Below are positions 1-36,711 of a stretch of DNA of 37,388 nucleotides, one piece after another. A model generated the notes under the pieces. It did no database searches and was not told the DNA's origin. It was given only the letters and a program-made list of their open reading frames with translations. A program made the translations under genes and the position numbers. This stretch comes from Halobacteriovorax sp. (lineage in GTDB: Bacteria; Bdellovibrionota; Bacteriovoracia; Bacteriovoracales; Bacteriovoracaceae). Every line of letters starts with the position of its first letter. Position 1 is the stretch's first letter. Location: the NCBI GenBank assembly GCA_002720865.1, contig PBIO01000025.1, positions 64,017 through 101,404 on the forward strand, read 5' to 3'.

Positions 1-691
1 CAAAGCTCGTATGCCATGAATCAGAAACATAATCCGGATCAATCCACCCAATGCCCATATGAATATCTTCAGCAAACTGATTATAATCATCTTGGCTTAT
101 AGATAATTGATACCGATTATACTGTTCAAGTTCTTCTTTAATTAAATCTCTAAGTTGTTCTCTAGAAAACTTCATATCCTTGCTACCTTCTCCAAGTTCT
201 GTTGGGCTTAGGTCCTGACTGTCGATCAACATGTCATCAATTGTGGCTAGGATCGCATCATAAGTTTGGCGTCGGACATCATCTCGCATGTTTGTATCAC
301 CGAACCGACGGCCCAAGTATGGAACTTGTTCCCAAATCCATGCATTTGATTTCTGGATTCCCTGGCCACCAGGGCCGAAGAAAATATATCCCATTGATTG
401 ATCTTCAAGCCCGACCTTACCAGGTTGATCAACAACTAGCCATTTTTGCTTAGAACCCTGTTCATCAATAAATTCAATTGATATTCCGGAATATCCTGAA
501 TCAAACATTTGCACATTTACATTAAAAAGGCCGGCGTCTTCAAACACTGTATCAATTTCATCTGCAAAGCTGACAAGGTGTGGATACTTTTCTTCATACT
601 TGTCCATTCCCCAACCACGGCTCTTTGAAACAGGCATCTCATTAAGTGCTGTTTCCTTTATAAACTTACGCAACTGGTTAATTGAACTCAT
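1..691 (-). CDS. Partial protein with capsid-targeting-like N-terminus
   Basis: The frame is open to the left edge, so the C-terminus is missing (230 codons seen). I chose the ATG at 691 because AGAGGG lies 7 nt upstream; an in-frame ATG at 697 is too close to that site. The N-terminus, about MSSINQLRKFIKETALNE, is a short basic amphipathic helix with I-K-E and L-N-E, both fitting a T4-type prohead protease site. A second similar helix, MKFSREQLRDLIKEELEQ, begins at residue 173. The part between is soluble, with segments such as GYIFFGPGGQGIQ and WIWEQVPYLGRRFGD that I do not recognise. Its N-terminus groups it with the cargo candidates at 25872-36711. Inference: a packaged head protein. Function unknown. 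Confidence 0.75.
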   Translation of the reverse strand, partial: MSSINQLRKFIKETALNEMPVSKSRGWGMDKYEEKYPHLVSFADEIDTVFEDAGLFNVNVQMFDSGYSGISIEFIDEQGSKQKWLVVDQPGKVGLEDQSMGYIFFGPGGQGIQKSNAWIWEQVPYLGRRFGDTNMRDDVRRQTYDAILATIDDMLIDSQDLSPTELGEGSKDMKFSREQLRDLIKEELEQYNRYQLSISQDDYNQFAEDIHMGIGWIDPDYVSDSWHTSF

Positions 692-800
692 GTACATACC
701 CTCTTTACCTTATTAAGTATCATGTCCGATAGTAAATATACAGCCATAATCACTCGTTGGATACTAGTTTATCCACTTAAAGTGAATAACCAAGAATTAA

Positions 801-1233: not shown

Positions 1234-1380
1234 ATGGATCAATTATTAATGGTATGGGTATGGCTAGATATCATAGCAGATATTATCATTATAAGCTATG
1301 CCAGCTGGTATGCATATAGAAAATTATCGGCTTGGGGGAAAAAATTTAGCCAACATATCCGCCAAGGTCTTCGAAGCTAG
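1234..1380 (+). CDS. Small single-pass membrane protein (48 aa)
   Basis: A 48-residue reading frame from ATG 1234 to TAG 1380. It starts MDQLLMVWVWLDIIADIIII, giving one hydrophobic segment over residues 4-25, followed by a basic tail (YRKLSAWGKKFSQHIRQGLRS) that would sit in the cytoplasm. The ribosome site is weak (GGAT). Its stop interlocks with that of the convergent Nfu-like gene in the 4-nt palindrome CTAG (1377-1380), a junction type seen five more times here, which supports it as real. No family recognised; a holin-like or membrane accessory role is only a guess. Confidence 0.5.
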   Translation: MDQLLMVWVWLDIIADIIIISYASWYAYRKLSAWGKKFSQHIRQGLRS

Positions 1381-1649
1381 TAGTACGGATTGATTCCTTG
1401 AGAATGATCTGTTGCATCTTCAACAGACTCGAGGCCTGGAAATTCCGTTGTCAAGGCATGCGTAATCATTAGCTTAAGCGTAATAGTTGAACTAGCACAG
1501 CCTTGACAGCCTCCCCCCATGGTAACGTATAGTATCCCTGACTCTTCATCATAACTATGGATATTCAAAAATCCTCCATGTGATGCCAGGCCTGGGTTAA
1601 TATCTTCTTCGATATATTTTTCTATTTGTTCTTTACTTGGGCGATTCAT
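1377..1649 (-). CDS. NifU C-terminal/Nfu-like Fe-S scaffold
   Basis: A 90-residue protein matching the Nfu (NifU C-terminal) domain. It has an N-terminal helix with EKYIEEDINPGLASHGG, then GGGCQGCASS with Cys48 and Cys51 forming the CxxC that binds a 4Fe-4S cluster between two subunits. Nfu proteins carry assembled clusters to client enzymes. Length is normal for a single-domain Nfu. It overlaps the upstream IscA-like gene by 17 nt, so the two are probably co-translated. This is a plausible auxiliary module that loads host or phage Fe-S enzymes during infection. Confidence 0.88.
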   Translation of the reverse strand: MNRPSKEQIEKYIEEDINPGLASHGGFLNIHSYDEESGILYVTMGGGCQGCASSTITLKLMITHALTTEFPGLESVEDATDHSQGINPYY

Positions 1650-18602: not shown

Positions 18603-19664
18603 CTAATTTGAGCCTTGCTCAAACTTTCTTAATAGTTCTCTTTGCTCTGATGTTATCTTTTTTGGAATTTGAATTTCAATGTGTACATAATGATCTCCGT
18701 ACATAGAGCCCCTAAGGTTCTTAATCCCCTTGCCATGAATTCGCAAAGTTGTATTAGGTTGAGTTCCGAACGGTACCTTTATTTTTTCATTTCCCTGAAC
18801 TGTTTCAACATCCAAAACTCCACCCAAGCATGCAGTAACAAAAGATATTCTAGATGTTGTATGAATATCGGTACCCCTTCTTTCAAATTTCCTAGATGGG
18901 TTAATTTGAATAGACGCCATTAAATCGCCAGGGGGGCCGCCCAATGAACCAGCATTTCCTTTTCCTGCAACTCGTAAACGATTTCCTACGTTGATGCCAG
19001 GGGGAATGTTGATAGCAATGCTATCAGTAACATCGATGCTACCAACGCCGCGGCACATACTACAGGGGGTTGTCGGTATAGAGCCCGACCCCCTGCATTT
19101 TGGACATGCAGACTGTACTACCATAGGGCCTTGTTGAAAACTAGAATATCCTGTACCACGACACATATCACATACGGTACGTGATGTATTAGGCTCCTGA
19201 CCTAAACCAGTGCATCCAGTACATGTGTCTTTTCTGGTAAGATTTATTGACTTTTGGCAACCCTTAACTGCCTCTAAAAAATCGATTGTTAAACTAATAT
19301 TGATATCCGGGCCACGTTGGGGCCCCTGGGGACGTGTCTGGTGGTGGCCGCGGCGACCAAAAAATTCACCAAATATATCCTCAAATCCCCGGAATGGATC
19401 TGAGTGTTGTGATGATCTTCTATATTGATTATCAAATGGATTAGGCCCGGAATGACCAAAAGCATCATAGTCTTTGCGCTTCTGCTCGTCAGATAATGTT
19501 TGATATGCCTCGGAAACTTCCTTAAATTTGTCTTCGGCCGTTTTATCACCAGGATTCTTATCAGGATGATACTCTAAAGCTGCCTTCCGATAGGCTTTTT
19601 TAATCTCTTTGCTATTAGCAGTACGAGCTATACCAAGCACCTCATAATAATCGCGCTTGGCCAC
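18603..19664 (-). CDS. dnaJ: DnaJ (type I Hsp40) co-chaperone
   Basis: A 353-residue complete DnaJ. The J-domain has H33-P-D35 in the helix II-III loop and normal flanks ([23 protein letters not shown]). A Gly/Phe-rich linker follows (residues 70-110). Four CxxCxGxG zinc motifs begin at residues 148, 165, 187 and 201 ([32 protein letters not shown]), then the C-terminal peptide-binding domains ([26 protein letters not shown]). GTG start with GGAG 7 nt upstream. It stimulates host DnaK ATPase and holds clients. No phage DnaK is here, so it presumably uses the host's. Confidence 0.95.
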
Positions 19665-25860: not shown

Positions 25861-25883
25861 AAAAAAAAGGCCTATATGCCCTT
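25861..25883 (-). terminator. Likely intrinsic terminator of the cargo operon
   Basis: On the minus strand an AAGGGC / GCCTT stem (one bulged G, loop ATATAG) runs into a tract of eight Ts, overlapping the stop of the CCA-HAD gene. It is a weak but correctly placed stem-plus-U-tract at the end of the long minus-strand operon. Confidence 0.5.
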
Positions 25884-27752
25884 AAGAGCTAATTCTTTAA
25901 TCGTATTAACGGATTTTCCGGTTTCATGAAGAATACCCAGGCCTCCTGCAGCATTCCATGTGCTAATCGTACTAGCTTTATCATCAATTAAAATATTTGA
26001 AATACCAGCCGTAACAGCATACTCGGATTTCATTTTTGCAGAACGAACTATTACCTCTGAAGGAACTGGGCTTAGCCACTTGGTAGTCCACTGCTTTTTC
26101 CCATCTGCAGCCGTTGGAGCATCAATTCCATTACGCATATTGATAGGTGCAGTAAGTAACTTAACATCAAATCCAGAATTATTAATATATGACCATAATG
26201 CTCCGATACCGTCGTCTAAGGGTAGAAGACTAGCAAAAAAAGCTCCAGGTGCAAAACTAATTGCCGCATACATCAATGTACGTACAAAGGGTAAGTTAAG
26301 ATCTTTCTTTGTTCGAGGGCGCCAACGGGGTCCTGAAGTATCATTTATATTTCTTATCGCCCTTCGCATAGACTTAGAATTCTGAACCCAGTCGGCACCT
26401 ACAGTACCATCTAAAATCTTGCTGCAAAGCTCAATAGCACCGGTTTCAAAATCAACCAACACACCATCCATATCACAATATATTGTTGACTTGGGTGTTA
26501 TATCAGGTTCCCTATTATTATTTTGCTGTTGTTCATGCTCAAGTTCTTCGTTTAAAATAGACCTGATTAGGGCACGAACTTCTCCTACTAATGTGCTATA
26601 TGCTTCAGCCTCTGCATCATTCATTGCCTTACCTATGGCCGGCCCCTTTATCCCCTGGGCCATAAGATCCTTAGGATTAACTGCTGGTGGTGCATCGGCA
26701 AACTTTAGAAAAGCCTGGATGATGGATTCCGAAGGTGCACCCATAACCCTTGAGTACTCCTTAACCGTCGTCAACTGAATATCGAATCGGTTGTAATCTT
26801 TCTTAAGGGACGGTGCTGACTCCTTTGATATAGTTCCAAACCCGAGTAAGAACCGAATTGCTTTTTGTTCATCATTCGAGTATGTCATATTCTTAAGAAC
26901 TGTGGAAACGGCGTCCTTAGAATTGTAGCTAAGGATTGCTGCAATTTGTGCTATAGGGTCGCTCGTTGAAGCCGGCATAATTTTTATATCTAATCCAGGA
27001 AAAATCTGTCTAAATAAGCCTAACTCTTTTGTTAAATGCAGAAAGTGATTTACATCCTTGGCGGATGATATCCCCTTTATAAACTCATCCCTAATTCTTT
27101 CAGGTGAAACTTCACTCAATGTATTGTCATTAAGAATGGCCTGCTTAGTCTCTGGATCTAAATCGGATCCCATTCTGCCGGCGAATCTTACGGCACGCAG
27201 AATTCTTAGGGGATCCTCATCGAATCTCTCGGCCGGATCGCCAACTGCCTTAATGACCCCATTTTCAATATCGCTTATGCCACCGACATAGTCAACCACC
27301 TCACGTGTATCCATATCATAGAAGAGTGCATTGATCGTAAGGTCTCTTCGATTGACATCATCCTCGATTGTCGTAAACTTCACAGAGTCCGGACGTCGGC
27401 CCTTGCCAATATCTTCTCTAAATGTTGCTATCTCATATTCGCCACCCGCGCGCGTCTTCACCCTTACAACACCAAATGATTCACCAGTTAAATCAAGTCG
27501 CAACTGGCCTTGGCTCTGTAGTATCTGGATAACCTTATCAGGGACGGCATCGGTTGCCAGGTCATAGTCCTTCGGTGTCTTACCAAGCAGCACATCACGT
27601 ACGGCACCACCAACAACATATAATTGTTTTCCGGCACCCTTCATTCGTTTATGAATATCCTGCAAGTCAGCAGGTATTGGCAGATCCATGGATTGTCTCA
27701 CCGGTTCCTCCAGCGTCATTGCTTCTCTTATGTAAGCATATAATATATTCAT
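25872..27752 (-). CDS. CCA-adding enzyme fused to HAD domain, with capsid-targeting-like N-terminus
   Basis: A 626-residue fusion. Residues 1-16 (MNILYAYIREAMTLEE) form a cargo-like peptide with I8-x-E10 and L14-x-E16 sites. Residues 43-250 are a class II tRNA nucleotidyltransferase: YVVGGAVRDVLLG and DYDLATDA (the two catalytic Asp), RRDLTINALFYD, and RFDEDPLRILRAVRFAGRM. A helical body follows. From about residue 425, IYCDMDGVLVDFETGAIELC begins a HAD/5'-nucleotidase-like domain (DxD motif) ending near NILIDDKAST. The first part would add CCA to tRNA 3' ends; the second would hydrolyse a phosphate. Strong AGGAG before the ATG. A terminator lies at its end. The fusion is unusual. Confidence 0.85.
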   Translation of the reverse strand: MNILYAYIREAMTLEEPVRQSMDLPIPADLQDIHKRMKGAGKQLYVVGGAVRDVLLGKTPKDYDLATDAVPDKVIQILQSQGQLRLDLTGESFGVVRVKTRAGGEYEIATFREDIGKGRRPDSVKFTTIEDDVNRRDLTINALFYDMDTREVVDYVGGISDIENGVIKAVGDPAERFDEDPLRILRAVRFAGRMGSDLDPETKQAILNDNTLSEVSPERIRDEFIKGISSAKDVNHFLHLTKELGLFRQIFPGLDIKIMPASTSDPIAQIAAILSYNSKDAVSTVLKNMTYSNDEQKAIRFLLGFGTISKESAPSLKKDYNRFDIQLTTVKEYSRVMGAPSESIIQAFLKFADAPPAVNPKDLMAQGIKGPAIGKAMNDAEAEAYSTLVGEVRALIRSILNEELEHEQQQNNNREPDITPKSTIYCDMDGVLVDFETGAIELCSKILDGTVGADWVQNSKSMRRAIRNINDTSGPRWRPRTKKDLNLPFVRTLMYAAISFAPGAFFASLLPLDDGIGALWSYINNSGFDVKLLTAPINMRNGIDAPTAADGKKQWTTKWLSPVPSEVIVRSAKMKSEYAVTAGISNILIDDKASTISTWNAAGGLGILHETGKSVNTIKELALKGI

Positions 27753-27787
27753 TGTATTATACTCCTGAGAACTGAAGATTTACACGA

Positions 27788-28033
27788 TTAAATCCAGATT
27801 TTAATACAGCCATAATTTAAAAGGCTTTCAGATCTATTTACATCATATTGATCTAGTATCGATAAAACAATTTTCTTCATTTTATCTGAATTACCGGTGA
27901 TGATATAAGCTTCCTCTAATTTACTCCAATGATCTGATAGAAAGTTGTGGCACTTTGCCTCTACATCCTCATGATTTGTACCATGAAGATCAAGGGAAGG
28001 GGCGGGACGCTTCTTTTTATTTTTTCTTGCCAT
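27788..28033 (-). CDS. Smr-domain protein
   Basis: An 81-residue protein with a Smr domain: basic front (MARKNKKKRP), LDLHGTNHEDVEAKCHNFL (residues 14-32, with the Leu-Asp-Leu-His-Gly motif), then AYIITGNSDKMKKIVLSIL, which replaces the usual TGxG with TGNS. Smr domains nick DNA or RNA or bind branched DNA; in ribosome rescue they cut mRNA. This is the size of the domain alone. It overlaps the SNase gene by 17 nt. Confidence 0.75.
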   Translation of the reverse strand: MARKNKKKRPAPSLDLHGTNHEDVEAKCHNFLSDHWSKLEEAYIITGNSDKMKKIVLSILDQYDVNRSESLLNYGCIKIWI

Positions 28034-28364
28034 AAACTTTAGCTAAGCCCTCTTCTAGAAGCCAGTTGTTAATCGAAAGCTCTTCTTCATTTTCATTAAT
28101 GAATATCTCACCAAGCCAGCGGCCATACTTCCCACGCTTGTCTTTTGTAGTTTTTACCTTAACCCATTTATTTCCTATTTTTGCGCGAAGGGCATCCCTA
28201 GACTTAAGACCCTCTGGCCGCTCGGGACCTCGGACCTCTGGAGTATTAATGCCCAAAAGCCGAATCTTCTGTCCTCCTAAAGTTATTCCAAACCCTAGAT
28301 CAAAATCGACAGTAATGGTATCACCATCATAAACTTTGCGAACAAATGCTCTATATTCATACAT
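28017..28364 (-). CDS. Staphylococcal-nuclease-like (SNase) protein
   Basis: A 115-residue SNase (thermonuclease) fold. VYDGDTITVDFDLGFG begins it, Arg35 and Glu43 lie in KIRLLGINTPE, and Arg82 in KRGKYGRWLGEIF, matching the catalytic Arg-Glu-Arg set of the family. The family cuts DNA and RNA with Ca2+. No signal peptide is seen, so it would act in the cytoplasm, for example breaking down host DNA or cutting RNA. It lies between the papain gene and the Smr gene. Confidence 0.88.
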   Translation of the reverse strand: MYEYRAFVRKVYDGDTITVDFDLGFGITLGGQKIRLLGINTPEVRGPERPEGLKSRDALRAKIGNKWVKVKTTKDKRGKYGRWLGEIFINENEEELSINNWLLEEGLAKVYGKKK

Positions 28365-28442
28365 GATAATATTTTCCTATAGTAAAAACTGTTTGTGATA
28401 ATCTTTCATGAAGACTGGAGGCGGGCCAACTCCTGACCCGTA

Positions 28443-29597
28443 TCATTGTGCCATTCCTAATATAAGCAGCAATAATAAGGGCATGCCTATTACAACAGCT
28501 AATAATACCCAAACCCACAATTTAACTTTCTGTTCAGGTGCCTGTTCAATCTTTTTAGGAGGCTTAGGATCTGGGTTATCTATCAGTCCCCACACTTCTA
28601 TCATGTGACCATTCCTTGGGCCTGTAGGCGGACATGAATTTGAGCGCATGCGCCAAAAATCATTATAGCTCATTAATAAATACCCGGGAGGTAAATCCGG
28701 ATCATTGGATGGAAGAAGCCCCCAGCTGTTTTGTATTATGAATCCTTTCTTATTCCATCCGATGATTGTCATAGCATGGCCGCCTTGCCATACACCTTCG
28801 CCTTGTTGGGCCCAAAAGTTTGAAGATGGATTGATTGCCCATACACCCCTATCCACTTCAACATTTGCATAAACAGAGACACCGAGGAGAAGCGGGCCAA
28901 TTTTCATAAGTGCATGTTTAATACGCTGACATGCATCCCACCCCTTAGAGTCTAAAATTCGTTTAGGCAAATCAAATTGTACATACACTTGATTGTTGGT
29001 TTCATTATAGAACTTTGTACGAAAATCTTTTGTTAGCTCTTGCCAGCCATCAGGCCATGCTTCTAGGGGGACAAATGGATCTTGCCAACCATCGCTCATA
29101 TCCTTGTCCGTCCAGTCTTTGTTGTATTCAAATATTCCAGGCGTTTCTGATCTACTTTTAATGACTTCCCATACATCCTCTGGACAAGGCATACCATACT
29201 TTATTGCAATCGATGCCGCCGTACGACCAGACATACCGGCGCTACACAACCACCTCTTAACACCTGCAATCGATTCGGTCATATATTTCTCTTGACCAGC
29301 TGGCCCACGTAGCAAATAATGTGAGACGGGAGAATACTTTACATATTTTCCTGTATCTCGCTCTTGTTGGATTTCCCTAACCTTCGTTACAGCATGAGAT
29401 GCACAGGAACCCCATTTTAGCTGATCTAAGACATCGTCATCAATCGATGAAGCAAAATACTCAATTGGAAACTCTTGATCGTCAATTATTGCATAATCGG
29501 TATAAGAATAATCCCTAGTATCTTCAGAACTTGGCACAGTTCCTAAAAATACCTGTTGCCCTGTAGTAAGAATTGATGTTTTTGCCTTTTGGGTCAT
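28443..29597 (-). CDS. Papain-like (C1) cysteine peptidase with C-terminal membrane anchor
   Basis: A 384-residue C1-type peptidase. The catalytic pair is Cys65 in LKWGSCASHAV with Gln59 six residues before it (papain spacing), His274 in GGHAMTIIGWN, and Asn290 in IIQNSWG. There is no propeptide or signal. The C-terminus (residues 360-384, VWVLLAVVIGMPLLLLLILG) is a membrane helix, giving a tail-anchored enzyme with the catalytic domain in the cytoplasm. It lacks the capsid-targeting peptide and overlaps the DEDDh gene by ATGA. It may cut host inner-membrane or cytoplasmic proteins. Confidence 0.88.
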   Translation of the reverse strand: MTQKAKTSILTTGQQVFLGTVPSSEDTRDYSYTDYAIIDDQEFPIEYFASSIDDDVLDQLKWGSCASHAVTKVREIQQERDTGKYVKYSPVSHYLLRGPAGQEKYMTESIAGVKRWLCSAGMSGRTAASIAIKYGMPCPEDVWEVIKSRSETPGIFEYNKDWTDKDMSDGWQDPFVPLEAWPDGWQELTKDFRTKFYNETNNQVYVQFDLPKRILDSKGWDACQRIKHALMKIGPLLLGVSVYANVEVDRGVWAINPSSNFWAQQGEGVWQGGHAMTIIGWNKKGFIIQNSWGLLPSNDPDLPPGYLLMSYNDFWRMRSNSCPPTGPRNGHMIEVWGLIDNPDPKPPKKIEQAPEQKVKLWVWVLLAVVIGMPLLLLLILGMAQ

Positions 29598-30460
29598 CTC
29601 TTTTTTCTCCGTTTTTGACGAGCAAGTACTTTACCTTGCTCCTTACTTATATCAACACCCATTCCCTTTCGGATTGTTTGCACAACTTCTTTATACATTT
29701 CCATCATCATCTTAACATCAGCTAACGCATTATGCCAATCATCAATATTGATGCCGTAAGCCTTTGATACTACACCCATTGATACAGAGTGATATCCCCA
29801 ATTACCTTTCTTTATATACAGCTTATCAAGCAACTCCTGGGCCTCTGAGTCCCCTTCTCCTGCTCTCGTTTGGGTCTTTAATAGGGGAACAAGGTAGTAT
29901 TGCATGAGTTGCATGGTGTCTAGGACAGGATACTTCGGTAAGCTACCCTTTGATCTTACGTTTAGAAACTTTAAATCAAATGAAGCATTCTGGGCGATGA
30001 ATAATGGGTTTGGAAACCCGGCAGCCCATTCGAAAAAGTTGCCTAAGACTTCTTGCTCATCGCCGTATGTTCGGCCTTTTTCTCCATATCGGGTCATAGC
30101 CAAGACTGCCTGAGGGTCTTTTAGCGGGCGCCGTGATTGTGAATTTTTCTTTTCCCACTCTTTTCGCTCTTCTGATTCTGGGTCATTCATCAAGCGATCA
30201 GTTTCATCAGTGAACTTTATCTTCTCATTAAATTGGTCAAGCATTGTAGCATCCGACTGCCATGCATTTGGATCTACTGCAATTGCCCCTATCTCTGTTA
30301 ACTGTGCAGAATTAGGGTGCATTCCTGTCGTCTCAGTATCAAAGAAGATCCATGTATTGTCAGCATATCCGTCGAGCAAATCTAGCACACCCTTAACTGT
30401 GCGGCCGGATAACTTATTCTCCACCAGCAATTCTCTTATGTACTCACGAAGTAGATTCAT
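29594..30460 (-). CDS. DEDDh exonuclease with capsid-targeting-like N-terminus
   Basis: A 288-residue protein. I start at ATG 30460 because it overlaps the upstream stop (ATGA) and begins the conserved peptide MNLLREYIRELLVE. After it, the DnaQ-like domain has Asp41 and Glu43 in WIFFDTETTGMHP, FIAQNASFDLKFLNVRS, and DWHNALADVKMMM, with the last His-x5-Asp making a DEDDh active site. It would digest DNA or RNA from the 3' end. It could act as a nuclease or proofreading-like enzyme, or trim RNA. The peptide, with I8-x-E10 and L12-x-E14, marks it as a packaged cargo candidate. Confidence 0.87.
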   Translation of the reverse strand: MNLLREYIRELLVENKLSGRTVKGVLDLLDGYADNTWIFFDTETTGMHPNSAQLTEIGAIAVDPNAWQSDATMLDQFNEKIKFTDETDRLMNDPESEERKEWEKKNSQSRRPLKDPQAVLAMTRYGEKGRTYGDEQEVLGNFFEWAAGFPNPLFIAQNASFDLKFLNVRSKGSLPKYPVLDTMQLMQYYLVPLLKTQTRAGEGDSEAQELLDKLYIKKGNWGYHSVSMGVVSKAYGINIDDWHNALADVKMMMEMYKEVVQTIRKGMGVDISKEQGKVLARQKRRKKR

Positions 30461-31131
30461 TCTGACAGGTCCTTTATCATCCAATCGATTGCCGTATTTA
30501 GTGTGTACGTAGTCGCCTGGAGCTGTTCATTTCCATAAGCATTTTTATGACGTTTGATTGTCTTTGTATCATCCCAATCCTCAACGCTCTCCAATAATGC
30601 CTCTGCAAGATAAATTATGGAAAGATATGCTAGCTTTCCTACTTCAAAAACAGAGTCTGGAAATTCCTGCTCGCTGGCCTTGACGCTTTCAAGCCTTGAT
30701 AACTTTTCAGTTGCATTAGCAATTAACTTAGGAGAAACATCACGGATATCCTGTACAGCTCTCTCAGCTGTTTCTCTCATTCTATCTTGATACTCTTCCT
30801 TATATTGAGTTACATCATTGAGCTGCATAACATACACGTCTTTTGAGTACTCAGAAACAACATCCATCATGATGCCTATTTCTTCGTTAAGGTGTTCTTC
30901 TTCAACTCGGGCCATTGCATGCCACTCTGTCTTACCGTCATACCCAACCCTCTTTCCTAAAGATCCTAAAATACAATGTGCAGCCTCCGCATACCTTGCA
31001 GCTCCTACGTTATACTCCATTATACTATTATATCCACCAGACGATGGAATTCCCCCATAGTTATGCCCCCTAATTGGGCACATATTTTCATTAATAAGCA
31101 AGGTGCGTATATATGTACGTAATAAACTCAT
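30457..31131 (-). CDS. Helical cargo candidate of unknown function
   Basis: A 224-residue protein beginning MSLLRTYIRTLLINE, a variant of the cargo peptide in which residue 10 is Thr but I-N-E follows at 13-15. The rest is mostly helical (ARYAEAAHCILGSLGKR, KLIANATEKLSRLESVKASE, VFEVGKLAYLSIIYLAEALL) with a Gly-rich start (GHNYGGIPSSGGYN). No enzyme motif is seen. It overlaps the upstream stop by one nt and the DEDDh gene by ATGA, so it is in the cargo operon. Function unknown. Confidence 0.75.
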   Translation of the reverse strand: MSLLRTYIRTLLINENMCPIRGHNYGGIPSSGGYNSIMEYNVGAARYAEAAHCILGSLGKRVGYDGKTEWHAMARVEEEHLNEEIGIMMDVVSEYSKDVYVMQLNDVTQYKEEYQDRMRETAERAVQDIRDVSPKLIANATEKLSRLESVKASEQEFPDSVFEVGKLAYLSIIYLAEALLESVEDWDDTKTIKRHKNAYGNEQLQATTYTLNTAIDWMIKDLSE

Positions 31132-31655
31132 TAGAAATTCACCGCCCCTATAACATCAACATCTGGATACTGTTTTTCCATTTTGTCTTTGAGGTGACCT
31201 ATCTCCTGTCGCATCATCTTACCAAAATGAATTAACATACCTGGCTTTGCATACCTTTTAAAGAACTCATCCATTAGTTGGCTAGCCACCTTCTGGCCAC
31301 CTTTGTCACCGCGGGTCTTCATATAATCGATATACCAGCCGTTGTCACCGTATTTATGAAAATCCAGAAATCCTATGACGCAAACGTCTGAAACACCGGG
31401 GACCATTTGGCCCTTGCGAGGCTTCTTTAACCTTCTGCCTGATCGGCCATAATGATCCCACTCTTGATATTCATTAAAATATGCATCACGCATTGGCTTA
31501 CCGGTCGGTGACATATTGGGTTCCTTTACTGAAGTATCGCAAAGTGCTAATCTTTTTACATTCCTTGCTCTGGCATATGTAAGAGGAGAGTCAAGCTCTC
31601 TAAACTCAATACCCTCTGCCAAAACTTCTCTTATGTATTTCTTTAATAAAATCAC
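31131..31655 (-). CDS. GNAT-like cargo candidate
   Basis: A 174-residue protein starting (GTG) MILLKKYIREVLAE, the cargo peptide with I8-x-E10 and V11-x-x-E14. The C-terminal part, VCVIGFLDFHKY followed by WYIDYMKTRGDKGGQKVASQ, looks like a GNAT acetyltransferase: strand, then an R-G-D-K-G-G loop where acetyl-CoA binds, then a helix and the strand PGMLIHFGKMM. The match is weaker than for the 36037 gene. It would transfer an acetyl group to a host protein or small molecule. A basic loop (GRRLKKPRKGQ) lies in the middle. Confidence 0.65.
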   Translation of the reverse strand: MILLKKYIREVLAEGIEFRELDSPLTYARARNVKRLALCDTSVKEPNMSPTGKPMRDAYFNEYQEWDHYGRSGRRLKKPRKGQMVPGVSDVCVIGFLDFHKYGDNGWYIDYMKTRGDKGGQKVASQLMDEFFKRYAKPGMLIHFGKMMRQEIGHLKDKMEKQYPDVDVIGAVNF

Positions 31656-31667
31656 TTTATAGATCCC

Positions 31668-32531
31668 TTAATATGCCATGTAGGTTTCCCAAAAGCCCTC
31701 ACCATGTTTATCTTCCCACTCAGCATACTCACCTCTAGAATTATTACCATCTGGGAAAATAAATCTAGAGCCATCCTTCATAATAATTTCCCAATTAATC
31801 CCATTAAATGGTTCATCATGATCTGAATAAGTAGATATTGATTTTAAATGAGATTTCCCAATATCTCTATCGTACATAATCCCCAAAATTGTATAAATAT
31901 CTTGCATAGTCTTACGAGAAGGAGACGATCCAGCAGCATTAGGCATCGGGCCTGTTGTCGTAACAGTTACTGCAGTTACCCACTTTCCGCGGTCACGGTT
32001 CATATTTTTAAACCTTTTTAATTCTACCTTTGTACCAGCAGGAAGATTGTCAATTTTCTTTGCGAATCTGTCACCGGACTTTTTCCACTTATCAAAAATT
32101 AACTCATCTGCATAAGAATGAAGACCAGAACGATTTCCGAGGCCTGGCCAGATATTTTTTCCAGCGACTGTTACCCGGTTTCCTTCTTCTGCCCAGTTTA
32201 GTATTTCTTGTGTTGGATCACCTGATCCTATTTGATCACCATACGATTCTCGGATGCGGGCTGCGCCACTTAAATAGTACCAGTCAACGGCCGCGTTGAC
32301 ATCCTCATCTGTAAACTCACCTGGATATGCAGCCTTAGCATCATCAACCGCTATAGCATTAGAGTCACTCCATGTAGAATACCCAAGATCAAACCCCATT
32401 TCTTGAATCATATCTAAAACTTCTTGAAAGCGGCGCGCGCGGTGTTGATCTATATTCAGTGATGGATCAGGGCCTTCTGTAATAGATTTCCGAATTAACT
32501 TTCGTAATCGTGATTTGGTTATTTTTATCAT
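31668..32531 (-). CDS. Cargo candidate with divergent targeting peptide
   Basis: A 287-residue protein. Its start MIKITKSRLRKLIRKSITE is a basic amphipathic helix ending I-T-E, related to the MKxTxSxLRxLIxE starts of many marine phage proteins rather than to the LLREYIRE type of its neighbours. The body is acidic and Trp-rich (EMGFDLGYSTWSDSNAIAVD, NIWPGLGNRSGLHSYADELI) with a strand-rich C-terminus (KWVTAVTVTTTGPMPNAAG). No family recognised. AGGAG lies 9 nt before the ATG. Confidence 0.7.
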   Translation of the reverse strand: MIKITKSRLRKLIRKSITEGPDPSLNIDQHRARRFQEVLDMIQEMGFDLGYSTWSDSNAIAVDDAKAAYPGEFTDEDVNAAVDWYYLSGAARIRESYGDQIGSGDPTQEILNWAEEGNRVTVAGKNIWPGLGNRSGLHSYADELIFDKWKKSGDRFAKKIDNLPAGTKVELKRFKNMNRDRGKWVTAVTVTTTGPMPNAAGSSPSRKTMQDIYTILGIMYDRDIGKSHLKSISTYSDHDEPFNGINWEIIMKDGSRFIFPDGNNSRGEYAEWEDKHGEGFWETYMAY

Positions 32532-32549
32532 ACTAAAACTCTCCTAACA

Positions 32550-33008
32550 TCATCTAGGTACCTCTTCTATTCTACCACATATAACTATGGGGGGTATAGG
32601 CTCAAAATCCCCTAAGCCAAAATCATTCGACATCTCTGGTCGACCGGCAGTCTGGGGATTCGTTGCAATGGTTATATGAGGATAAGATATACCAAGTGTA
32701 TATAAAGGCAGATCACCAAGCTCAACTAGCCCAGTAATAACCTGATCATTCTTTGCGATTCCAACTATAGTTACACACTCTTCTGAGCCAATCCACCTAG
32801 ATGGTAATCTATGCTTTGATTGTTGTCCGGATGCAGGTGATATTATAGTCATATGATGTGAGTGCAATTTCCATTTCTCAGGAGATAGTTTGGATAGTTC
32901 TTGATGAGATGTGCCATCTAAAACGAGTGCTGTATACTCTATGCTTTTATCAGGTGTTAAGTACATCTCAGATAACAGTTCCTTTATGTATACGCGTAGT
33001 AAATTCAT
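32550..33008 (-). CDS. 2H-phosphoesterase-like cargo candidate
   Basis: A 152-residue protein with the cargo peptide MNLLRVYIKELLSE. After it are the two His motifs of 2H phosphoesterases: H52-M-T54 in HSHHMTII and H111-I-T113 in YPHITIAT, with the strand order YTALVL...VTIVGIA...LYTLGIS expected for this fold. Family members open 2',3'-cyclic phosphates on RNA ends, or cyclic nucleotides; the anti-CBASS protein Acb1 has the same pair. A packaged enzyme of this kind could act at once on a host signal or on cut RNA. The substrate is unproven. Confidence 0.75.
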   Translation of the reverse strand: MNLLRVYIKELLSEMYLTPDKSIEYTALVLDGTSHQELSKLSPEKWKLHSHHMTIISPASGQQSKHRLPSRWIGSEECVTIVGIAKNDQVITGLVELGDLPLYTLGISYPHITIATNPQTAGRPEMSNDFGLGDFEPIPPIVICGRIEEVPR

Positions 33009-33214
33009 TATTCTTTTCTCCTATGTGAATAATCATTCCAGCCTTGGATCTTTTTACACATAGAATCTAGATTGAAGCTCTCCGGGGGGCTCCAGAATGG
33101 AAGTATTCCATGAAGGATAAGAAATATGCTACTCAACCCTAAATGAATTGCAACCTTACCGGCAAAGATTAGGTGGCTTATATACGTCTCGTTATTTTCC
33201 CTAAGGTGCTTCAT
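33008..33214 (-). CDS. DUF6356-like small membrane protein
   Basis: A 68-residue protein with ETYISHLIFAGKVAIHLGLS and FLILHGILPFW, matching the small DUF6356 family (GEsYleHxxFA...HallPf). One membrane segment (residues 16-40) precedes a charged tail. It has no cargo peptide, although it sits between two cargo genes and is coupled to both by overlaps. Function of the family is unknown. Confidence 0.7.
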   Translation of the reverse strand: MKHLRENNETYISHLIFAGKVAIHLGLSSIFLILHGILPFWSPPESFNLDSMCKKIQGWNDYSHRRKE

Positions 33215-35277
33215 TTTCCGTCCACCATATTGACTATCTCTTTGATTGTGGCAGTATATACATCAATTCCCTCATCAGACATCTCTTGAATAAACTGCCT
33301 AAACTCTTCTTCACTAGGGTGATTCGGCATACCCCTACGTTGGTAATACTTTTTCCAGATATATACATTCTTGACCTGAATCTTATCCATGACTATTTCG
33401 TCATACATTTTTAGTCGATGATAACTATCACTTGGCAGCTTGACTGAATCAACCACTGCCTCCCTAAGTGTGCCAGCATACTTCATCATAACTTTCTCTG
33501 CTGAGTCTAAATAGTGCTTAATCATCGAGTTGAGCTGAACTTTATCACGCCGGCGGGCAACTTCACGCCATGTATCTAGCCCAGTACCTGCTTCAGGTTC
33601 ATTTTTTTCTAGCCACCCGTTTATCGATGACAACAAGTCTTTTTTCATGGGATCAGTAATACTGGGATCCTTAACTAATCTCACAATATATTCCATTGTA
33701 ATATTTCTTCTGCCACCCTTCTCTGGAAGGGTGAACATGTCTTCCATACCTGATGCTATTTGTTGTCCCTCTACCTCTATGACAACTCCGCCCCTGGCAG
33801 TAATGCCCCCTTTTATAAAGTCAGCATTAGCTCCCCTAGTAAACACAGATGCTTGTTTGGAGGTACCCCTAATATCCAATAAACCGTATGCCCCATTTAA
33901 GTTAGTAATGTGATAACCTTTCACCTCTTGTTTAAGACTCCCAAATATTCTGGTCATCATTTGTGAGCCGAGAGGAAGGAACATATCATCTTCATCTCGA
34001 AATTGAATCATTGTTGAGTAACTTTCCTGATTTATAATCTTTTGCTTTTTTCCATACTTCTCAGTCAAAATCCTTTCGGTGTAAAGGCCATCTCCCTCAT
34101 AAATAAATTCATTACGCTGATTAAATGCCAGCCCCTGAGCATCTCCTAAAATTTCGACCTCGGCCATACATTCGTTACGTGCTCCACCCATGATATCTGA
34201 GCCGGACCATGAAGGGAGAATATCTGATAGTTCTGGTACCCAAAACCCATAGTCCTCTAGATCATCAAATAGTAATTCACTAACCCCTATCTTTTCAACA
34301 TCTTCTTCATCTAAGTCCCGAATATCTTGAACATTATTATCAATCATATATTCAACAATCTTTACAACTGACGTTCTATCAAAACAAACGTTCGAATCCA
34401 TTACATCACGAAAAAAACCATACCCCTTATCAAAGAAAGTTGCACCTGACATGAGATCATCAAACAGCTCTTCGTCATAATCTAACTTTTCAAAATAGTA
34501 ATGACGTAAGTCATCTTCAGAGACCATTCCTAAAGTATCGGCACCATTATATAAAAATAAAACCTTATTATACTCGTTGGCCGCATGAAGAAGGTCACCT
34601 ATGTCGAATGAGAATCCGCTCTCGTATTCAGGTTGAACATCAACCACCACCACACTTCCGCTTGATGCTTGCTCCAACAAGGTGTGTGTGTACAATTCCA
34701 TAAGGCCTAAAGATTTAAGAAAATTCTCTTGATTGTCTTTGTCAGATTGCTCCATACCCTCTTTATCAAGCAGCATATTTCTTCTGTTGGCAGTCTCCCA
34801 GCTATACTCATTAGACTCTTTCATCCATGCATCGCGATCCTGCATCATCGCATAGAGATCATCGTCCCATGGGCCTTCTCCACCTTTCATGGCACAATTG
34901 AGTATAGCTTCTTCAGCAGTAAATTCTTTGTATACCTCAGGTTGGTACATGTCGTAATAGGCCTCTTTGTCAACTCCATTCGGTTTAGTTACCTTGGTCT
35001 GATCATCAAAAACCAGATCGCCCATCTCGACCCAACCGTGGACAACTGGCTTTGGAGGACTCTTCCATTTGTTTGTTACTGTACCATGAACAACCTTAAA
35101 CTTGCTCTTGTCATTTAAGTCCGGATGCTTCTTTGCCGATCGGCCTGGCCTTCCCTTGGTATAGTATTTCTCAAACCATTCCTCGGCTTTCTGGTATGCA
35201 AAGGGAAAGCACATGCCTGTGGCAAGGACGTTTTGCTCTTTAAGGAGTTCCCTTATGTACTCACGGAGAAGTTTCAT
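33211..35277 (-). CDS. Large multidomain cargo candidate (papain-like N-terminal domain)
   Basis: A 688-residue protein beginning with the cargo peptide MKLLREYIRELLKE. Residues 20-130 look like a papain-like or transglutaminase-like domain: Cys23 in MCFPFAYQKA, His80 in VVHGWVEMGD and Asp91, forming a likely Cys-His-Asp triad. Residues 205-300 start SSGSVVVVDVQPEYE, a Rossmann-type strand as in isochorismatase-like hydrolases, and contain DKGYGFFRDVMD. From about 445, GYHITNLNGAYGLLDIRGTS and GGVVIEVEG recall phage domains that have been compared with ADP-ribosyltransferases, but I see no certain catalytic set. The C-terminus is helical. Good GGAG before the ATG. Confidence 0.7.
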   Translation of the reverse strand: MKLLREYIRELLKEQNVLATGMCFPFAYQKAEEWFEKYYTKGRPGRSAKKHPDLNDKSKFKVVHGTVTNKWKSPPKPVVHGWVEMGDLVFDDQTKVTKPNGVDKEAYYDMYQPEVYKEFTAEEAILNCAMKGGEGPWDDDLYAMMQDRDAWMKESNEYSWETANRRNMLLDKEGMEQSDKDNQENFLKSLGLMELYTHTLLEQASSGSVVVVDVQPEYESGFSFDIGDLLHAANEYNKVLFLYNGADTLGMVSEDDLRHYYFEKLDYDEELFDDLMSGATFFDKGYGFFRDVMDSNVCFDRTSVVKIVEYMIDNNVQDIRDLDEEDVEKIGVSELLFDDLEDYGFWVPELSDILPSWSGSDIMGGARNECMAEVEILGDAQGLAFNQRNEFIYEGDGLYTERILTEKYGKKQKIINQESYSTMIQFRDEDDMFLPLGSQMMTRIFGSLKQEVKGYHITNLNGAYGLLDIRGTSKQASVFTRGANADFIKGGITARGGVVIEVEGQQIASGMEDMFTLPEKGGRRNITMEYIVRLVKDPSITDPMKKDLLSSINGWLEKNEPEAGTGLDTWREVARRRDKVQLNSMIKHYLDSAEKVMMKYAGTLREAVVDSVKLPSDSYHRLKMYDEIVMDKIQVKNVYIWKKYYQRRGMPNHPSEEEFRQFIQEMSDEGIDVYTATIKEIVNMVDGK

Positions 35278-36040
35278 CTTTTAACTCCTGGAATAAGCTG
35301 TAGAACCGCTTAACGTATCTTTTCTTTGTTTTCTCCGAAACTTTGCTCAAACGAAGTGGCTCGTAATTGAGATCAAATAGGTATTTTTGAAAATCCCTAA
35401 AGTCATCATTCTCTATAGCCGACCGCAATTTATCTCCTGTGTGACCTTTATCATCTCTGATAGCTTTTCGTGTAGAAGATATGATGGGAATAAGGCGAGC
35501 TTGTACTTCTTCTGTAGAGTCCTCATAAGCCTGTTTAGAAATATCAAACTGATCATCTCCACCAGCAGCCCTATATTTTTTGTCACCCGAGCGTGTCTTA
35601 TTGATCTGATGAGTGAGTTCATGTTCTAAAATTGAAATGACTTGGGGGTCATTCGCAAAATAGCTTAACGCATTACCGGATTTTTGTACCTTCTCAAAGA
35701 CCGGTGGCGTAGGAAATATCTGCAACTCATTATCCGGAGTTATTTCTGCTCTCTTTTTGAGATAGCGAGAATTCGGATCCTTATTGGGATTGATGATTGT
35801 GACAAAGAGTTCTTCGAACCCGTCAATCAAATCGGTACCTTCCTCAGGTAGCGGCATCTCTTTCATCTCATAGACTTTATAAACCATACCGGAACCATCA
35901 ACACCAAATTCTGGTCCTACATCAGCAAAATTTGAGCCAGATCTCATGCTAGAAATAATGGTGTCAATAAGATCAACATATTGCGAATCCGATTTTCTTT
36001 CGGTCAACAGCTCTCTTATATACTCGCGTAGTAGTTTCAT
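35261..36040 (-). CDS. HExxH zinc peptidase cargo candidate
   Basis: A 259-residue protein starting MKLLREYIRELLTE. Zinc motif H140-E-L-T-H144 lies in ISILEHELTHQINKTR, with the acidic SYEDSTEEVQA stretch near residues 172-180 a likely source of the third Glu ligand (gluzincin layout). It has no signal peptide. It may cut host proteins after injection, or process head proteins. Its ATG overlaps the upstream stop by ATGA (36037-36040); it overlaps the next gene by 17 nt. Confidence 0.78.
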   Translation of the reverse strand: MKLLREYIRELLTERKSDSQYVDLIDTIISSMRSGSNFADVGPEFGVDGSGMVYKVYEMKEMPLPEEGTDLIDGFEELFVTIINPNKDPNSRYLKKRAEITPDNELQIFPTPPVFEKVQKSGNALSYFANDPQVISILEHELTHQINKTRSGDKKYRAAGGDDQFDISKQAYEDSTEEVQARLIPIISSTRKAIRDDKGHTGDKLRSAIENDDFRDFQKYLFDLNYEPLRLSKVSEKTKKRYVKRFYSLFQELKDETSP

Positions 36041-36711
36041 AGTTTCACCAACCTGCCTGCAGAACTAAGCGCATCTAAAGTTGGTGATCCAGTCGACTTA
36101 TACAACTTTGATAGAGGGCTCTGTAATAAAATATCTTTACCATAAGGATCCCAAGGAGTCTCTTCATTCTCTTCATCCCAAAAATAACCATCTTGATGCT
36201 CGTACGATAACCACTGCGGGCAATCGTCCCCCTTTGTCTCTGGTGTGAGACGACCAGATAAATCGTCTAACTGAATAGTGATTACATCTGGACGACGAGT
36301 GGCATAATAGTTCCAAATAGAATATGCATCGCTAGAAATGTTTCTTCTATCTGGTAGTAAACCGCTTCCTTCAGCAGTTGCAGTTTCCATTGCAATATCA
36401 TAAAGCATAGGACCAAATCCTTTAGCTTCATCATCAACATGAGCCCAACTAATCTCATATCCCCCTAGACAATCAGCTTCATCTGATTTAACTGCAGAAA
36501 GGATACCGATAGATGCCCTATTCATAATAGATGTCATGCCTAGATTTTTAGAAGAATTATTTTTCCAGTAGTCTACCTCTTTAGGATCCGCAATCCAGAT
36601 CTCTATATCTCCATCATCTCTACTTAAATACACCTTCATATTACCGAGAGACTCGGGGCCCTTTGCAGCTTCCCTAATTAGCTCTTTTATGTACTCACGT
36701 AGGAGGGTCAT
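36037..36711 (-). CDS. GNAT acetyltransferase-like cargo candidate
   Basis: A 224-residue protein. ATG 36711 starts the cargo peptide MTLLREYIKELIRE, and overlaps the upstream stop (ATGA); a start four codons upstream is unlikely. Residues 84-140 resemble a GNAT fold: YEISWAHVDDEAKGFGPMLY (motif A, with the AKGFG loop for acetyl-CoA), helix IAMETATAEGSG, then SSDAYSIWNYYATRRPDVI. This looks like phage GNAT proteins with the D-R-x-x-x-S-x-x-A-x-S-x-W pattern. It would acetylate an unknown target. The C-terminal third is acidic and unassigned. Confidence 0.75.
   Translation of the reverse strand: MTLLREYIKELIREAAKGPESLGNMKVYLSRDDGDIEIWIADPKEVDYWKNNSSKNLGMTSIMNRASIGILSAVKSDEADCLGGYEISWAHVDDEAKGFGPMLYDIAMETATAEGSGLLPDRRNISSDAYSIWNYYATRRPDVITIQLDDLSGRLTPETKGDDCPQWLSYEHQDGYFWDEENEETPWDPYGKDILLQSPLSKLYKSTGSPTLDALSSAGRLVKL

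Follow-up and report, generated by a model that had tools for sequence, protein, structure and literature searches.

Short N-terminal peptides on unrelated proteins as putative head-address tags, with candidate polyprotein cargos, in a T4-like marine jumbo phage

Results and discussion

Unrelated proteins share an N-terminal tag

The stretch of DNA analysed here (the window, 37,388 nucleotides, C25:64017-101404) belongs to contig C25 (PBIO01000025.1) of a Halobacteriovorax sp. assembly (4.9 Mb, 33 contigs), and contains an operon in which nine minus-strand proteins have the N-terminus M-x-LLREYI[RK]ELLxE or a variant of it (Table 1). This peptide, hereafter the tag, is very probably a capsid address of the capsid-targeting sequence (CTS) type found on the internal proteins (IPs) of phage T4. 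More broadly, and with less assurance, we favour the view that far-T4 marine jumbo phages place head-address peptides on dozens of enzymes, that these peptides are interchangeable and come in one or two dialects in each phage, that several of the cargos are polyproteins split by the prohead protease at retained tag sites before injection, and that the dialects allow the injected proteome to be listed from metagenomes. The principle is known from the T4 internal proteins, while the scale, the tag diversity and the fused cargos appear to be new.

The first-pass annotation of the window had named eight such N-termini and a ninth variant (start at 32531); all nine were read where it placed them, and the genes starting at 29597 and 33214 within the run lack the tag, as it claimed. 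The strongest tags belong to the genes starting at 30460, 33008, 35277, 36040 and 36711, the weakest variant is that at 27752, and the protein starting at 32531 bears another tag class. A Shine-Dalgarno-like AGGAG lies a few bases 5' of several tagged starts and is weak at others, and the start at 36711 is backed by a second strain, as it is the first start of the frame on contig C16.

The same annotation underestimated the scale of the tagged system. The operon runs on beyond the window, with three or four further tagged genes on C16, and a larger array of the other class, comprising 20 tags of the MKITKRQLKRIIKEE type (MKITK class), occupies C25:53-64 kb directly before window position 1. 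Approximately 35 proteins of this phage are tagged. Among its 287 predicted proteins, the core xL[RK]xx[IVL][RK][EKTS] has 35 matches within the first 30 residues (8,610 amino acids, aa) versus five elsewhere (68,010 aa), and nearly all genes of contig C13, which carries structural and replication genes, are without a tag. Within the whole assembly, the LLREYI DNA pattern (at most one mismatch) was found on C25 and C16 only, and the sister MKITK pattern gave 20 matches, all on C25, against none for the reversed control. When codons for one tag residue are compared in pairs, about 57% of the pairs are synonymous but not identical, and third positions vary most, indicating a constraint on the peptide rather than a copied DNA element.

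No pair among the 35 tag-stripped cargos is similar at E<0.01, and information falls to background after the tag. On these grounds, the possibility raised with the original proposal, that the tag is merely the first helix of a shared domain, was rejected; one cargo also takes different tags. An origin of the tagged genes in the host chromosome was likewise rejected, with tags present on phage contigs only and a composition unlike that of the host contigs. A second, internal copy of the tag core is present in the proteins at C25:57509-58297, C25:24217-24789 and window 2-697, representing tandem fusions or alternative internal starts. Many short proteins at C25:27000-52000 start with M-K-[VI]-G-D-[LI]-V; these are probably homologous small proteins and not a tag.

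The phage genome and its prohead protease

C25 (101,404 bases) appears to be a viral contig entry in IMG/VR. C16 is 99.9% identical to it across a 30.5-kb overlap and lengthens the tagged operon, whereas C6 joins the other end of C25 via 99 exact overlapping bases and has 9.4 kb in common with C13 at 94% identity. The tetranucleotide composition of C13 and C6 is nearly equal to that of C25, and the host contigs are unlike them. The four contigs therefore look like one jumbo T4-like phage lineage of at least ~245 kb, represented by more than one strain. The bin carries two phage strains in the C25/C16 (99.9%) and C13/C6 (94%) stretches, so the assembly is mixed.

C13 encodes gp23 (PF07068, 1.6e-74), gp20 (PF07230, 5.3e-79), a T4-type terminase and the prohead protease gp21 (PF03420, E=8e-27). 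A gp21-like gene was what the first-pass annotation had proposed to look for, its absence counting against the proposal, and in relatives the tag and the protease lie on one contig. In an eight-sequence alignment with T4 gp21, the C13 protease keeps the invariant histidine (GEC/LDHP) and serine (GISSRG) motifs. In searches of deposited phages, the capsid protein is matched best by those of uncultured huge phages and of Microcystis phage Mel-JY01, Flavobacterium phage immuto and Rhodothermus phage RM378. Its predicted maturation site is QLRE/ANSL (here and below, a slash marks the presumed site), compared with IVSE/ANVT in immuto and LISE/ANRT in Mel-JY01, and all three obey the same rule as FLTE/AEIG in T4.

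A 136-aa protein close to the C13 protease gene (MAKLSRSQLKSIVKECLVEILEEG) also bears a tag. A gene neighbouring gp21 with a matching tagged N-terminus is present in 10 of 11 related tag-bearing contigs; the eleventh did not match the protease motif used to locate the neighbourhood. These neighbours (135-153 aa, ours and 10 relatives) start with MAKxxRxxLKxLVKECLVEILxE, and their first 23 residues are among the most conserved.

The MKITK pattern was found in 93 stretches of IMG/VR. All 12 tag-bearing contigs that reach 165 kb have PF03420, as do 14 of the whole set of 18, the four without it being 91-135 kb long. The 14 tagged contigs with gp21 carry 5-32 tags each (reversed-pattern control, 0), and nine other gp21-bearing contigs carry none. 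A scan covering 85k species, with one genome each, matched the tag pattern in two metagenome-assembled genomes (MAGs) only. One of the two matches falls on a contig of 305,838 bases that encodes gp21, which makes it almost certain that a phage contig was binned with a bacterium. NHDW01000006.1 (L259), filed under a Methylococcaceae MAG, is such a gp21-bearing phage contig. In 50,697 deposited phage genomes, the MKITK tag was found in LR756508.1 only, and the LLREYI and MKLLFENWR tags had no match.

The tag ends at a protease-like site

Among 314 distinct MKITK-class tags from relatives, residues 1-14 carry 2-4 bits each, after which information declines to a last peak of hydrophobic-hydrophobic-x-E near residue 22 (E 41%) and to at most 0.15 bit beyond. 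Hydrophobic-x-E near residue 22 is present in 109 of the 314 tags, versus roughly 5-20 at later offsets. For LLREYI tags the motif lies at offset +4, in 8 of the phage's own 12 and in 10 of 11 related ones. T4 gp21 cleaves after L/I-x-E (PMC9026906), and the end of conservation at hydrophobic-hydrophobic-x-E agrees with this rule.

T4-type CTSs are N-terminal propeptides of 10-19 aa common to otherwise unrelated proteins. The tags here likewise sit at the N-terminus of unrelated cargos and measure 14 and about 22 residues in the two classes, the latter slightly beyond the T4 range. The sequence MKTYQEFIAE, given in the first-pass annotation, is correct as the start of IPII and IPIII in the T4 record. 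Aligned without gaps, MKLLREYIRE matches it at five of ten positions (M1, K2, E6, I8 and E10), bearing out the proposed I8-x-E10 spacing within residues 6-10. In the T4 decapeptide, residues 4 and 7 matter for targeting and residues 8 and 10 for processing (PMC9026906).

Homologous cargos exchange tags

The tag classes are exchanged on homologous enzymes. The exonuclease bears the LLREYI tag in the window, but a 48% identical enzyme bears MKITRRQLRSLIKEE (MKITRRQL) in L155/L156, and those of L157 (47% identical) and L158 (38% identical) start with MIITKRALRSLI and MKLLLENWRGYLLTE. At L158:3076-6252, on a viral contig, six or seven neighbouring genes share this last tag, starting with MKLL[LF]ENWR[GQK]-, a further tag class. 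The CCA enzyme of L160 (60% identical) starts with MKIKKSQLRRIIREA (MKIKKSQL), and other CCA enzymes with MIKLRTLLPLNE (L164) or MIYLSNLIPLNE.

In two ~640-kb phages, the CCA enzymes start with MILKKYKMFLES (L277) and MIITKYAKFLES; in one of them (L275) the exonuclease lies within an open reading frame (ORF) starting with MKLKKYKQFIKE, and a neighbouring gene starts with MRLKKYNQFIKE. The Y-x-x-F-I-x-E of these phages is the T4 pattern and very close to MKTYQEFIAE. Their S77 matches are sub-threshold only and lie inside long ORFs. In L169 and relatives, at least six genes upstream of the terminase start with MIKxxxxxxE (MIKLxxLLxE), with residues 8 and 10 at the T4 spacing. In three phages without detectable S77, the CCA enzymes begin directly with the enzyme, and that of Agrobacterium phage Atu_ph07 does likewise. 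Zeta-toxin-like P-loop kinases at L169:5476-6252 and L160:16424-17185 bear two different tag classes and are possible injected kinases. Such natural exchange is indirect evidence that the peptide by itself may direct a foreign protein into the head.

Fused cargos retain tag-like junctions

Several cargos are fused in one phage and free in another. The nucleotidase of the 626-aa CCA fusion of the window (25872..27752), which is separated from the CCA enzyme by the tag-like junction VRALIRSILNE/ELEHE, has its own tagged gene in L151, L160 and L162, and the three domains of the 688-aa protein occur as separate tagged genes elsewhere. An AlphaFold model of the latter (shallow alignment) had a mean pLDDT (predicted local distance difference test) of 45 and was not used for fold search. 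Conversely, a 923-aa chain in L161 comprises DUF192, the CCA enzyme, the 224-aa protein encoded at window 36037-36711 and PAP2; the free protein reads MTLLREYIKELIRE/AAKGP and the fused L161 copy VRLLTE/AAKGP. L162 fuses GELRRYIRGLLTE/ASEYDDQF behind its CCA enzyme, and the L161 counterpart is the free gene MNLLREYIRVLVE/ATEYDSHF.

The 25 residues preceding the next domain were inspected at eight junctions. [LI]-x-E is present in all eight, compared with 17% of background windows (binomial P 7e-7), and hydrophobic-hydrophobic-x-E in seven of eight, compared with 7% (P 9e-8), P values that are descriptive because the test was post hoc and the junctions are not all independent. Because a tag remnant and cut site are kept between the domains, the fused cargos are probably polyproteins that would be split in the prohead.

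Proposed route and alternative explanations

From these genes we infer a route in which the amphipathic N-terminal helix would dock each tagged protein onto the prohead scaffold, and a gp21-type protease would then cut after hydrophobic-x-E, that is, at E14 and/or E10 of MxLLREYIRELLxE and at about E22, possibly E14, of the MKITK class (MKITKRQLRRIIKEExARLLxE). As T4 IPs and Alt do, the freed enzymes may remain in the head and enter the host with the DNA; once there, they could help the phage to take over the host early in infection or to counter its defences.

An alternative is that the tag, neither cleaved nor packaged, is a docking helix for some other phage assembly, be it the replication site, the phage nucleus, the membrane or RNA polymerase. 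In its favour, N-terminal amphipathic helices shared between proteins act as address peptides in other systems, and many of the tagged proteins are enzymes with possible functions in the cell. We consider this alternative unlikely: the tag is also on the protein beside the prohead protease in tagged genomes, it finishes at a gp21-type site that the fusion junctions retain, homologous cargos in other phages bear a near-copy of the proven T4 CTS, and nearly every gene of the structural and replication contig C13 is untagged. A slightly smaller chance is given to the tagged proteins being parts of the prohead core or scaffold, processed and mostly lost instead of delivered. A tagged core-like protein does lie beside gp21, and many MKITK-array proteins are small and have no known domains, so that part of the array could fit; however, a scaffold alone would hardly account for several cargos whose enzyme domains are intact and identifiable (CCA transferase, exonuclease, HD, NT5C-like, Zeta-toxin-like kinase and PAP2). 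It is highly improbable that the tag is the leftover of repeated gene duplication or of a mobile DNA or RNA element, such as a translation enhancer or recombination hot spot, and not a functional peptide. Local copying does occur, as some MKITK-array tags are 95-100% identical over 46-60 bp, and module shuffling would be favoured by shared tags. Nevertheless, the peptide is kept across phages while the DNA differs, and a copied DNA element is largely refuted by the synonymous codon variation within the phage and the swapping of different peptides on one cargo.

Several points weigh against the capsid-address reading itself. We infer packaging, cleavage and ejection in an uncultured group; the protease gene is on another contig, joined via C6 by the 99-bp overlap and the 94% strain-level identity; and an amphipathic helix alone gives periodic hydrophobic-x-E with no need for a protease site. 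The presumed P1' residues after the tag sites are mixed (Q, G, A, S and N), unlike the E/A of the capsid protein. The pattern at the fusion junctions was noticed before it was counted, and some junctions share ancestry. Atu_ph07 has gp21 yet its CCA enzyme bears no tag, so tags do not follow from the presence of the protease. Furthermore, the T4 late promoter TATAAATA is not enriched 5' of tagged or structural genes, a consensus that is that of T4 and may not be that of this phage.

Other features of the window and its contig

Two cargos of the window have tagged relatives in other loci: that at 31131..31655 is 68% identical to MSLLREYIKEILNE (L150-L153), and that at 32550..33008 is related to MNLLREYISELLTE (L151-L153). 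Adjoining NifU-like and Fe-S cluster assembly (IscA/ErpA-type) proteins, both untagged, are encoded at window 1377-1649 and 1633-2001, and a similar pair sits among the tagged genes of L160. Other phage genes encode DnaJ (window 18603-19664), Hsp20 (C25:22451-22891) and an IMP dehydrogenase-type protein of 381 aa (L010:15837-16982). A complete PrkA kinase, SpoVR and DUF444 (YhbH/YeaH) trio, usually a bacterial stress module, is located at C25:8084-12562 (L003), ~52 kb before the window. Scans of the window for tRNAs and Rfam families gave no match.

Table 1. Tagged cargos and untagged neighbours in the window (positions are those of the window)
Feature	Position	Strand	N-terminus	Basis
Fused cargo, tag MNILYAYIREAMTLEE + CCA/poly(A) nucleotidyltransferase (44-255) + HAD 5'-nucleotidase-like domain (CDMDGVLV), 626 aa	25872..27752	-	MNILYAYIREAMTLEE	PF01743 5.8e-36, PF12627; phrog_2244, phrog_2643
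Tagged cargo MNLLREYIRELLVE/ + DEDD/DnaQ-like 3'-5' exonuclease	29594..30460	-	MNLLREYIRELLVEN	PF00929 8.4e-10; phrog_192 3.5e-21
Tagged cargo MSLLRTYIRTLLINE/, 224 aa	30457..31131	-	MSLLRTYIRTLLINEN	unmatched in Pfam, PHROGs and NCBIfam
Tagged cargo MILLKKYIREVLAE/, GTG start, 174 aa, possibly GNAT acetyltransferase	31131..31655	-	MILLKKYIREVLAEG	sub-threshold PF14542/PF00583
Cargo with other tag class MIKITKSRLRKLIRKSITE/, 287 aa	31668..32531	-	MIKITKSRLRKLIRKSITEG	tag-core match
Tagged cargo MNLLRVYIKELLSE/, 152 aa, possibly 2H phosphoesterase-like	32550..33008	-	MNLLRVYIKELLSEM	sub-threshold PF08302
Tagged three-domain cargo MKLLREYIRELLKE/, 688 aa, junctions HTLLE/QASSGS and RILTE/KYGKK	33211..35277	-	MKLLREYIRELLKEQ	domains also found as individual tagged genes in other phages
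Tagged cargo MKLLREYIRELLTE/, 259 aa, HELTH zinc-metallopeptidase-like motif	35261..36040	-	MKLLREYIRELLTER	sequence motif; no family match
Tagged cargo MTLLREYIKELIRE/AAKGP, 224 aa, GNAT-like by motif only	36037..36711	-	MTLLREYIKELIREAA	homologous domain fused behind CCA enzyme in L161
Two-tag protein, 266 aa, N-terminal SSINQLRKFIKETALNE + internal MKFSREQLRDLIKEELE	2..697 (gene crosses left end of window)	-	SSINQLRKFIKETALNE	first gene of MKITK array continuing to C25:53 kb
Papain-like cysteine protease, untagged, C-terminal membrane anchor, within operon	28443..29597	-		phrog_16701 1.5e-11; PF00112 weak
SNase-like thermonuclease, untagged	28017..28364	-		NF047969 3.5e-12; untagged too in related L160 operon
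Smr-like protein, untagged, 81 aa	27788..28033	-		PF01713 2.4e-5, just under cut-off
Small protein, untagged, 68 aa	33008..33214	-		sequence

Significance and comparison with known systems

Which proteins phages inject has long gone largely unseen: they act before phage gene expression and can disarm defences, yet usually come to light only via virion proteomics of cultured phages. If the capsid-address reading is true, injected proteins could be found by searching sequences with a short peptide profile throughout a clade of uncultured ocean phages, and the candidates would already include the CCA tRNA-repair enzyme, exonuclease, acetyltransferase-like protein, nucleotidase, Zeta-toxin-like kinase, metallopeptidase-like protein and PAP2. 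A varied set of natural tags for packing proteins into phage heads would also become available, along with an example of a polyprotein being processed in the phage prohead. In the literature searched, which covered few subscription journals, no description was found of arrays of such size, of homologous enzymes that swap several tag classes or of polyproteins joined by tags; the search for CTS arrays returned T4 and phiKZ-type work only, and the tag letters were not found.

The closest likeness is to IPI, IPII, IPIII and Alt of T4, which, like the cargos of the phage here, combine a short N-terminal peptide ending in L/I-x-E with a gp21-type protease and place unrelated proteins behind one tag. 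However, T4 has a handful of tagged genes, whereas ~35 are present here, in long arrays, with two tag classes in one genome and longer tags. Unlike the T4 internal proteins, the putative cargos here include many enzymes and fused multi-domain proteins, and the tag is also on a core-like head protein. Cargo peptides of encapsulins and bacterial microcompartments are likewise short amphipathic address peptides on unrelated enzymes; no processing site is expected in them, whereas the phage here has a T4-type head with a protease. The jumbo phages phiKZ and SPN3US share with it a prohead protease, and have many injected proteins (PMC10052503; PMC5694885), but in the parts of these sources consulted their propeptides are mostly long (111-254 residues, with two of 20-24) and no short conserved tag across unrelated cargos was found. 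Polyvalent phage proteins are multi-domain proteins, including ART and GNAT domains, for which co-injection with the DNA has been proposed (Iyer et al. 2017 via PMC7824862); in the phage lineage described here, by comparison, the domains also occur as separate tagged genes, and the points of fusion retain a prohead-protease-like site.

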